A DNA stretch of 64,000 bases from Chloroflexota bacterium. Its GTDB lineage: Bacteria > Chloroflexota > Dehalococcoidia > Lucifugimonadales > UBA3495. This document shows positions 20,630 to 23,307 of this stretch, piece after piece. Location of the stretch: the NCBI GenBank assembly GCA_009840165.1, contig VXOG01000067.1, forward strand, positions 62,406-126,405, given 5' to 3'. The translations under genes and the position numbers were made by a program. The notes under the pieces are model-generated. The model had not been told where the DNA came from and did not search any database. It worked only from the letters and a program-made list of their open reading frames with translations. Every line of letters begins with the position of its first letter. Position 1 is the first letter of the stretch.

Positions 20630-21028
20630 TCACTCAGCGTCCTCCGTCTCGCCGCGGAGAAATTCAGCAAGTTCGTCGGAGACTTGAAAACGTTGTAACG
20701 CTTCGTCAACGCGGCTGTTGTACTTTTGCCGTTCTTCACGACGTGCCTCGGCACGTGCTTTCGCCAGAACTTTGGCCCTGGCCGCTCTTCTGATTTCCAT
20801 CTTGGTTTCAAACATCTTGCGCGCCTCGTCAAACAAGCCGGCCATTGGTATCACAAAGGCCCAGTACAACTTTGTTACCGTGGTTTCAAACCACTGATAG
20901 GCCCAAAACTCCGAACCAGAGAAGACTTCCAGAATCGTCAGACAGCCGCCACCGACCACGGTAAAGCCTATAATCTGCCACCAGATGCCCCGGTCAGATA
21001 TTTGTCCGGAACGTTCCGGTTGCCTCAT
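20630..21028 (-). CDS. Small membrane protein with charged C-terminal helix
   Basis: A 132-residue protein of unknown family. Two hydrophobic segments are seen (about 15-37, WWQIIGFTVVGGGCLTILEV, and 54-66, LYWAFVIPMAGLF), followed by a long highly charged helix rich in Arg/Ala/Glu (68-105) that could form a coiled coil. I chose the inner ATG at 21028, because the upstream in-frame start would overlap the preceding gene by eleven bases. It lies 31 bases downstream of the UGSC-type gene on the same strand, so the two are probably co-transcribed. Confidence 0.65.
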   Translation of the reverse strand: MRQPERSGQISDRGIWWQIIGFTVVGGGCLTILEVFSGSEFWAYQWFETTVTKLYWAFVIPMAGLFDEARKMFETKMEIRRAARAKVLAKARAEARREERQKYNSRVDEALQRFQVSDELAEFLRGETEDAE

Positions 21029-21059
21029 TGTAGCATCCTTCGCGACAGCGCTGCGAGTT

Positions 21060-21602
21060 CTACCTGTCAACCAGGCACGCGATCACTTGCGGCGCTGCCG
21101 TTGCAGCACGCTCCGTCAACTCGGCGTCGTTGAGGGTGACGATGGGGTGCTCGATGATGGCGAGACCGTACTCCGGGTCGCCGCGCATTCGGGACATGGC
21201 GTGGGCCTGGCTGATGAAAGGTCGGGTGGTCAGCACGGTTGAGGGGATGCCGAGCAGTTCGGTTTCCATTGCGTCGTGCACACTGCACGCGGTGCAGGAC
21301 CCTCATTCAGCAGTGGCGTGTATTGCCACGTCGATGCTCTTGGCCGTGCGTTGCAAGTCCTCGATGCGGGCCGGCCACTGCCAGCCGCCCTTGTTGTGCT
21401 CAACCGTGCCGGCGATGTCGTACCGCTCGCCGATGATGGCGGCGATGCGTCGCAGCAGGTCTTCCGAGTGGGGCTTGTTGTTGGCGAAGAGGCCAATCAC
21501 CTTGCCGTCCAGCGTCGCCGGGCGTTGCGCCAACCGCGCGGGAGCTTCCGGCCCGTCGTCGCGGGGATCCATGGTGATTATTGAGCCGCCGTTTGTGGTC
21601 AT
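21060..21602 (-). CDS. UGSC-family selenoprotein (in-frame UGA = Sec100)
   Basis: Translated from ATG 21602 (AGGAGG seven bases upstream), the frame meets TGA at codon 100 (21305-21303) and then continues without break for 80 codons to a stop at 21060. The residues at the interruption read A-E-[UGA]-G-S-C-T-A-C, which matches the UGSC motif of a known bacterial (seleno)protein family. Both sides look like one protein: before it KVIGLFANNKPHSEDLL and a Rossmann-like IDVAIHATAE strand, after it GIPSTVLTTRPF and a C-terminal helix. A hairpin at 21272-21291 fits a bacterial SECIS. Sec100 and Cys103 would form a UxxC redox pair. Without Sec insertion the product stops at 99 residues. Confidence 0.85.
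21272..21291 (-). promoter_or_regulatory. Candidate bacterial SECIS hairpin
   Basis: Downstream of the UGA, nucleotides +12 to +31 fold into an 8-bp stem with one bulged A and a GTG loop; the arms are CGCGTGCA and TGCACGACG. The loop starts 20 nucleotides after the UGA and its first base is G. Both fit the published bacterial SECIS rule (apical loop about 16-37 nt from the UGA, G among the first loop bases). A competing CTGCAC/GTGCAG hairpin slightly closer to the UGA is also possible. Confidence 0.6.
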
Positions 21603-21703
21603 AACGTAACCTCCTATTATTTTCTTCCTGTTCAAAATCCGGCTAAGAAGGTGTCTAATAGGCCAGACGTGAGTTTCAGGCGAGAGGCGAGATTGAAGGA
21701 ACT

Positions 21704-21742
21704 CCCCCTCACCCCAACCCTCTCCCACCAGGGGAGAGGGAG
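21704..21742. repeat. CCCTCTCCC/GGGAGAGGG palindromic repeat
   Basis: CCCTCACCCCAACCCTCTCCC followed by GGGGAGAGGGAG forms a 9-bp hairpin in the gap between the UGSC gene and its upstream partner. It belongs to a dispersed repeat type, with a relative at 38633-38660. Confidence 0.65.
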
Positions 21743-21756
21743 ATTTTAGACACGTA

Positions 21757-22755
21757 CTAAGGGATTTGCACTTGGCGCGTTACCGAGCGGCTGCTGCCCC
21801 AAGTGCTGATGAGGCTGACGAACCCGCCGGCCATGCCGCCGCCGGGTAGAACAGTGATGCGGTCCGCGTCGGCTACTACCGGAACCATGCGGTCGTGGTC
21901 CAGCTCGTGGCCCATGCGATGCCAACGCATCCATTCGGCTACCGGGAGCTGGGCTTTTTCGTGCAGAAACTCCGCCACTTGCCGCCTGGACCATCCGGCC
22001 TCGCCGATGTGCAGCATGGCCTCCGGGCTGATTACGCAGATTATCTCCGGCATTCCGGGGCCAAAGGCCAGCATCGAATGGGCCACGGTGGTCAAAAAGT
22101 CCGCGGGATCCCGGTCGCCGTGCAGGGTCACCTGCAACGGCCCCAGCGTAGCGTAAGCGGTGACTATCGTCGCGTCGCCGCCGTAGCCCAGTTCCGAGGC
22201 CAGCGACGGCCACGGGCTGATCGCCAGGTTCTCCGGGAAGCAGAAGGTGATTTTGCCCGGATGCCCGAAGGTGCTGTTGTCCATCACCACCGGAACGGAA
22301 CCGTAGAAGTTGGCCTTAAACAGGTTGACCGCCCGGCCGATGGCGGCGTTGGCCCGGCTGCCGTTGCCCATCATCTCCACGCCGGCGTTCATGCCGATGG
22401 AGTCGGAGTAAGGGCCGCTGACCACCGTCAGCACGGTTACCCCGTTAGTGGACGTGCTGCTGGCGTGCAGGTTGAACGAGCGGTCGGCGATGGCGGACAG
22501 AGATGCCAGCACCACCGGAAAATGCTCGGGGAGGCAGCCGGCCATCACTGCGTTGACCGCCGCCTTGCCGGCCATGAACCGCTTTTGCCGGATAACCTCG
22601 GTGCCCAGATCGTGATCGGCAGATACGCCGGCGTAGTCCAGCATCGCCTGCACCCGCTCCGTCGTAGGCGGCACGATGGGCAGGCCGTCGGTGAGGCCGT
22701 TGTCAAAGTAGTAGTCCTGGGCGGCGCTCCAGTCGTCGAAACTATGTGTGGTCAT
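21757..22755 (-). CDS. Conserved protein of unknown function, likely partner of the UGSC gene
   Basis: A 332-residue soluble protein from ATG 22755; a GTG at 22812 would add 19 residues. The N-terminal region contains DNGLTDGLPIVPPTTERVQAML. The centre is rich in Gly and short hydrophobic strands, for example MNAGVEMMGNGSRANAAIGRAVNLFK and MDNSTFGHPGKITFCFPEN, and the C-terminus has ADRITVLPGGGMAGG. I recognise no catalytic motif. It lies directly upstream of the selenoprotein gene on the same strand (154 bases, including a repeat). My recollection that DGLPIVPPT-type proteins co-occur with UGSC proteins is not verified. Confidence 0.7.
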   Translation of the reverse strand: MTTHSFDDWSAAQDYYFDNGLTDGLPIVPPTTERVQAMLDYAGVSADHDLGTEVIRQKRFMAGKAAVNAVMAGCLPEHFPVVLASLSAIADRSFNLHASSTSTNGVTVLTVVSGPYSDSIGMNAGVEMMGNGSRANAAIGRAVNLFKANFYGSVPVVMDNSTFGHPGKITFCFPENLAISPWPSLASELGYGGDATIVTAYATLGPLQVTLHGDRDPADFLTTVAHSMLAFGPGMPEIICVISPEAMLHIGEAGWSRRQVAEFLHEKAQLPVAEWMRWHRMGHELDHDRMVPVVADADRITVLPGGGMAGGFVSLISTWGSSRSVTRQVQIP

Positions 22756-23307
22756 GTTGGTCAAGCACTCACTGGTTGTGGAATGGTAGTTGGGATTATG
22801 CCATTGTTTCACCGTGGGGGCGAATAATCATTCGGGTTTGGGGTTCTCCTTTGCCTGCCAGAGGTGAGGGTTTCTGATGATCGGTCGTTGTCAGCCCACG
22901 GCCGGGGTTTTACGCATGGTTTTTGACGCTGTCGTTCGCGCCCGACACGGCCTTGCGGCGATGTCGGATGCCAGCGCTGCGCCAGGCGCTGTGCTGTTGG
23001 GACCCCGCCGGTTAAGCATTGGCCGGACGCGGGTCTTGCCGAGCGTTTGCGATTTTTACTGACTGGCCGTTACGACCGGTTTGGGTTGGTTTCACCTCTG
23101 GCAGGCGTTGGGATTTGATAAGCCGGGACCGGCTGGTCATTCACGTGATGAGACCATGATAGAACGGGTGTGCCGGTAGGGTCAACAGGCGGGTGTCATC
23201 GTTTGGGGAATCGTGAGAATCAGGATTACCCGGATTGAAGGATTGACAGGATTGGCCTGTTCCCCCTTGGTGATTTGGATCGGCTGTGACAAAGGGGTGG
23301 TAGTCCC
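22756..23307. other. Intergenic region, about 550 bases, repeat-containing
   Basis: No convincing gene is seen. The region begins with a degenerate GGGGGCGAAT-AATC-ATTCG palindrome (about 22815-22840). At 23217-23254 it holds a GAATCAGGATTACCCGG / ATTGAAGGATTGACAGGATT segment of the dispersed GGATT-type repeat. The middle part has no evident promoter or hairpin. Confidence 0.55.
23217..23254. repeat. GGATT-iterated dispersed repeat
   Basis: Four near-repeats of the AGGATT/GGATT type (cAGGATTa, cGGATTg, AGGATTg, AGGATTg) occur in 38 bases. This is a pattern seen as a scattered intergenic repeat in several bacterial genomes. Confidence 0.5.

Follow-up and report, generated by a model that had tools for sequence, protein, structure and literature searches.

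A diverged UGSC-family selenoprotein gene of a Chloroflexota bacterium, its near-constant partner gene, and a probable distant kinship with the glycine and D-proline reductases

In glycine reductase and D-proline reductase a selenoprotein works together with a second subunit. In the proposed mechanism the second subunit holds the substrate and the selenolate attacks it, after which the selenium-carbon bond is broken, a selenenylsulfide is formed, and thioredoxin or another dithiol returns the enzyme to its starting state (PMC10298544). A related GrdB-type pair of Cloacibacillus has been implicated in the cleavage of the C-F bond of fluoroacetate (PMC10838667). A further selenoprotein family, the "UGSC-containing protein" (PF24696; NF041046), was described in 2008 from the GOS selenoproteome as one of the selenoprotein families most abundant in aquatic environments, and its selenocysteine (Sec) was mostly kept there, with 255 Sec against 21 Cys forms (PMC2398784). 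The same paper notes that UGSC can be fused to another conserved domain, Unknown_1. In a 2026 review UGSC is still placed among the uncharacterised selenoproteins (PMC13188914), in agreement with an earlier sequence-only reading of the DNA studied here, which had called the reaction undescribed. Here we analyse one member of this family, the gene found beside it, and the relation of both to the GrdB and PrdB systems.

The gene lies in a stretch of 64,000 nucleotides from a Chloroflexota draft genome, and we refer to this whole stretch as the window. It is encoded on the minus strand between an ATG at 21602 and a TAG stop at 21060, and its codon 100 is TGA (21305..21303) in the context ATAE-U-GSCTACS, with 80 further codons open behind it, so that the interrupted frame described in the sequence-only reading was found as claimed. 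The plus strand of 21060-21602 was also read; it gives no sensible protein, contains a second stop, and was rejected. Mechanical ORF calling with the standard code breaks the gene at the UGA. The 3' half becomes a 73-aa ORF, exactly as foreseen, and the 5' half has 99 codons when counted from the ATG, also as foreseen, or 141 from an upstream GTG. That earlier reading did not mention the strand, the near-obligate partner gene or any relation to GrdB/PrdB.

Table 1. Positions of the features in the window.
Feature	Positions	Strand	Basis
UGSC selenoprotein gene, 180 aa, Sec at codon 100	21060..21602	minus	joined translation, PF24696/NF041046 matches, model
In-frame UGA, Sec100 of the A-E-U-G-S-C motif	21303..21305	minus	frame reading; Sec/Cys column in homologues
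SECIS-like hairpin CGUGCA-GUG-UGCACG, apical loop starting 19 nt downstream of the UGA with G as its first base	21275..21289	minus	hairpin-specific test
Shine-Dalgarno AGGAGG	21610..21615	minus	7 nt upstream of the ATG at 21602
Partner gene, 351 aa, conserved neighbour or fusion partner of UGSC	21757..22812	minus	pairing, profile searches

When translated through the UGA, the 180-aa protein matches the Pfam UGSC family PF24696 over residues 11-178 (E 1.1e-41, 143.3 bits against a gathering score of 25 bits), and the alignment with homologues extends to either side of the UGA. The NCBIfam UGSC equivalog NF041046 is matched over residues 32-177 with 110.6 bits, which is under its curated cut-off of 125 bits. 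As judged by these profile scores, the gene is a family member by Pfam and stands outside the NCBI equivalog threshold. It resembles other UGSC proteins over its full length and shares their motif (U100-G-S-C103, columns 100 and 103 being nearly invariant in the UGSC alignment), and differs from them in having AEUGSC in place of the common GDUGSC context. The family is thus already known, and the window gene is a new, somewhat diverged member of it. A distinct subfamily of fused UGSC proteins has GHUSTCAP in place of GDUGSC and retains Sec (L083-L085, L087-L094, L043, L065). Three divergent UGSC domains lack Sec at the active column and have DTRSG (L055:8391-8906), DMG (L056:427-933) or CWG (L057:5308-5808) there; despite the altered active site, a partner adjoins or is fused to each of them, and they are possibly offshoots with another function.

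It is practically certain, in our view, that the window gene encodes a selenoprotein, and on this point the sequence-only reading is upheld by the family match across the UGA, by the hairpin behind it and by the decoding machinery. That reading had proposed a search for the Sec machinery, and all of it was found in the genome: a tRNA-Sec (66.4 bits) with the anticodon TCA (UCA in RNA), and the genes for SelA, SelB and SelD, the last with an in-frame UGA of its own. These genes sit on contigs other than that of the window, in a draft assembly with 5.7% estimated contamination; a mix-up of genomes is argued against because one contig (C7) holds both SelD and another UGSC pair. Among 400 Chloroflexota genomes searched, 42 contain UGSC, nearly always with a single in-frame UGA, and this UGA falls on the same column in the 66 non-redundant Chloroflexota UGSC domains, except in three divergent ones without Sec or Cys. 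In the genome scan based on the partner gene that is described below, the column corresponding to codon 100 was Sec in 73 cases and Cys in three, counted over all domains, and not Trp or Arg, as had been expected of a genuine Sec site. The three Cys forms, from Natrialba asiatica, Candidimonas nitroreducens and Luminiphilus syltensis, use TGC.

The bacterial SECIS element is a small apical loop with a guanosine, located right after the UGA (PMC1088965). The SECIS-like hairpin of the window gene has an energy of -6.3 kcal/mol. For the family we required a loop of 3-14 nt that has G as its first or second base and lies 14-37 nt past the UGA, and an energy of -4 kcal/mol or lower, where the length limits are those of the bSECISearch rules, slightly widened. 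Of 135 Sec homologues, 131 have such a hairpin, whereas three sham positions of the same genes show one in 35-45 of about 135 (about 30%), and the mean z relative to synonymous codon shuffles is -2.19 at the UGA and -0.03 to -0.28 at the sham sites, figures that come from related sequences and do not represent independent trials. A plain minimum-free-energy test of the region downstream of the UGA gives a weak signal for the window gene by itself (z -0.6) and a modest one over the family; unlike it, the hairpin-specific test is decisive. Because the Cys homologue of Natrialba also has a hairpin at the corresponding place, the hairpin alone is not diagnostic in one sequence; coincidence is excluded by the family-wide test together with the many UGA-bearing homologues. 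Standard-code calling yields two ORFs, which is what would be seen if an ordinary gene had suffered a nonsense mutation or if two unrelated ORFs adjoined, but these explanations are extremely improbable when nearly all homologues share the UGA column, when one single-domain family match runs across it, and when the machinery and the hairpin are both in place. It is just as improbable that the organism reads UGA as Trp, Cys or some other ordinary amino acid, since the homologues free of UGA have Cys there and not Trp, and since the genome has a tRNA-Sec with the anticodon UCA along with SelA, SelB and a SelD that itself carries the codon. Pseudogene, Trp recoding and two separate genes are in practice ruled out.

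The partner gene (22812..21757) lies directly upstream of the UGSC gene on the same strand, and its product matched no Pfam family in the Pfam search. The genome of the window contains at least eight UGSC genes and eight partner copies in one-to-one pairs, adjacent to each other and in one case fused, where the UGSC count rests on the best eight candidates and the partner search scored all 13 candidates. Across Chloroflexota, the partner is adjacent or fused for 61 of the 66 UGSC domains and both gene orders are seen; 30 of these pairs are separate and 31 share one open frame, of which one or two may be coincidence and not fusion. Public genomes were also scanned with the partner alone as query, which is free of Sec and so cannot bias the outcome toward it. 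UGSC was present at 74 of the 80 loci found in this way, and the loci came from Chloroflexota, Pseudomonadota, Actinomycetota, Rokubacteria, Binatia, Acidobacteriota, Methylomirabilota and one haloarchaeon. The distances among UGSC proteins follow those among their partners, with a Mantel r of 0.92 over 59 pairs (0 of 2000 permutations) and an r of 0.68 among the eight paralogue pairs of the window's genome (155 of 40,320 permutations). UGSC and the partner are, very probably, functionally paired. The partner is probably the Unknown_1 of the 2008 paper (PMC2398784). A conserved cysteine of the partner (MAGC) is replaced by Ala in some fused proteins, and therefore it is not essential everywhere.

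Two further features of the locus can be recorded. Between the partner and UGSC genes, at window positions 21702-21742, there is a palindromic repeat, CTCCCCCTCACCCCAACCCTCTCCCACCAGGGGAGAGGGAG, whose core occurs 55 times in the genome at no more than one mismatch and not at all in the reversed control; it is a REP-like dispersed element. A 146-aa ORF at 20630-21070, also on the minus strand, begins at the 3' terminus of the UGSC gene; its product combines a hydrophobic segment with a charged tail that resembles a coiled coil, and the search found no Pfam family in it.

The structure of UGSC was modelled by AlphaFold2 with 54 homologues and with Cys standing for Sec. The model has a mean pLDDT of 93 and five strands alternating with helices, and places position 100 just past the third strand. 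The fold is thus predicted to be Rossmann-like, not thioredoxin-like as proposed in 2008 (PMC2398784). Its neighbours among solved structures are generic Rossmann, flavodoxin and CheY-like proteins with Z up to 10.8. The best 50 matches listed include no specific structural relative and no thioredoxin-fold entry, although absence from a library search cannot exclude a family. With a model of a fused UGSC-partner protein, the structure search gave matches through the UGSC half only, and sequence searches of the PDB with UGSC, the partner, both profiles and a GrdB found no relative. Weak matches of a methanogenesis-marker-like kind (DUF2112, 8s7v_H) were set aside as probable chance.

Profile comparison points to a distant homology between the active-site half of UGSC and the Sec domain of GrdB and PrdB. 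In HHalign, the C-terminal 100 residues of UGSC align with the GrdB Sec domain at 96.5% (score 69.6, E 7.8e-10) and with that of short PrdB-like proteins at 93.3%, in both cases Sec on Sec, while reversed or shuffled GrdB and PrdB profiles score no higher than 22.5 and 2.3%, and GrdE, as a control with a real family, reaches 13.6%. Five of the 18,950 NCBIfam models, those of the GrdB/GrdF/GrdH/PrdB type, are matched by 21, 13, 8, 7 and 6 of 54 UGSC members, and every other family besides UGSC itself by only one or two of the 54, though the matches to the five are far under their cut-offs. Within the family set PF07355, TIGR01917 and TIGR04483, PF07355 was not matched and TIGR01917 gave 11.7 bits against a cut-off of 602. 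The homology is remote and spans about the last 100 residues only, and shared ancestry does not fix the reaction. Selenoprotein B of glycine, sarcosine and betaine reductase (GrdB/GrdF/GrdH) and PrdB of D-proline reductase carry their UGxC at the equivalent position of the C-terminal domain, they share with UGSC an ExxGIP downstream of the Sec site, and like UGSC they are accompanied by a second, larger subunit. FarBE of Cloacibacillus, which is GrdB-like and acts in the fluoroacetate system, offers a precedent for a Sec protein and partner with a proposed non-amino-acid substrate (PMC10838667). A difference lies in the second subunit. FarE is GrdE-related and the UGSC partner is not; the partner scored 0.0% against the GrdE profile and had no profile kinship to GrdE or GrdB, the two families covered by this comparison. 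A search for a PF09338 GrdE gene in the window's genome found none. Despite this, the same genome has two PrdB-like matches (L108, at G000:C83:7033-7458, and G000:C67:2814-3029), and the former has an in-frame UGA inside its UxxC site.

The best explanation of these data, and one that we consider fairly probable, is that UGSC is the catalytic half of a two-component Sec enzyme with the 351-aa partner. For such a pair we infer complex formation, a chemistry, an electron donor and a class of substrates along the following lines. Codon 100 is almost certainly read as selenocysteine by SelB and tRNA-Sec with the aid of the hairpin just downstream. The partner would hold an organic substrate, and the selenolate of Sec100, just after a beta strand of the Rossmann-like domain, would attack it nucleophilically and displace a leaving group. 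Cys103 of the UxxC motif may then resolve the selenium adduct or form a selenenylsulfide, thioredoxin or another dithiol would reset the enzyme, and the several diverged pairs of one genome may represent different substrate specificities. From the kinship with GrdB/PrdB and the two-part make-up, a chemistry of the same reductive kind may be expected by analogy, and we lean towards it. Some further points count against such a chemistry. Known reductases of the GrdB/PrdB type are anaerobic, and several named UGSC carriers belong to groups that we take to be aerobic. The partner also differs, as noted, from GrdE, the substrate subunit of glycine reductase. Alternatively, UGSC might be a generic thiol oxidoreductase that reduces peroxide, disulfides or methionine sulfoxide through a selenenylsulfide. 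The UxxC motif, the likely thioredoxin-like fold assigned in PMC2398784 and the thioredoxin reductase gene near the Cys homologue of Candidimonas nitroreducens speak for this, but it appears unlikely against a predicted fold with five beta-alpha alternations and Rossmann-type neighbours and a profile kinship that points to GrdB/PrdB, and because a constant, large and diverse partner with eight diverged paralogue pairs better fits substrate-specific catalysis.

Gene neighbourhoods give some hints. Likely operon neighbours in other genomes, listed with no background set for comparison, include ABC transporters, CoA transferases, short-chain dehydrogenases (SDRs), luciferase-like monooxygenases and amidohydrolases; the mixture does not point to one particular substrate, which weighs against the two-component reading. 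In Candidimonas nitroreducens (L204), the Cys-form UGSC pair is followed by genes for a CaiB-type CoA transferase and a thioredoxin reductase. Such neighbours hint at catabolism and at a dithiol donor.

Neither a near-obligate partner nor paired paralogues nor a relation to GrdB/PrdB came up in the open-access literature searched. Relative to that literature all three are new, and they sharpen the hypothesis for a family that was already known. More tentatively, UGSC and its partner could constitute an undescribed class of selenium-dependent reductive bond-cleaving enzymes, in which a Sec domain of the GrdB/PrdB type was recruited to work with an unrelated substrate subunit. Such pairs would have undergone duplication and specialisation inside single genomes and would now be common among mostly free-living bacteria, beyond the fermenting anaerobes in which this chemistry is known. 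Automatic annotation would break one of these two genes or leave them unnamed. The near-constant partner, the co-diverging pairs and the root apparently shared with glycine and D-proline reductase make the two genes a well-delimited candidate for a two-protein enzyme, with a specific hypothesis on its chemistry, and with the partner and the GrdB/PrdB kinship in hand, the reaction of UGSC should be easier to test.
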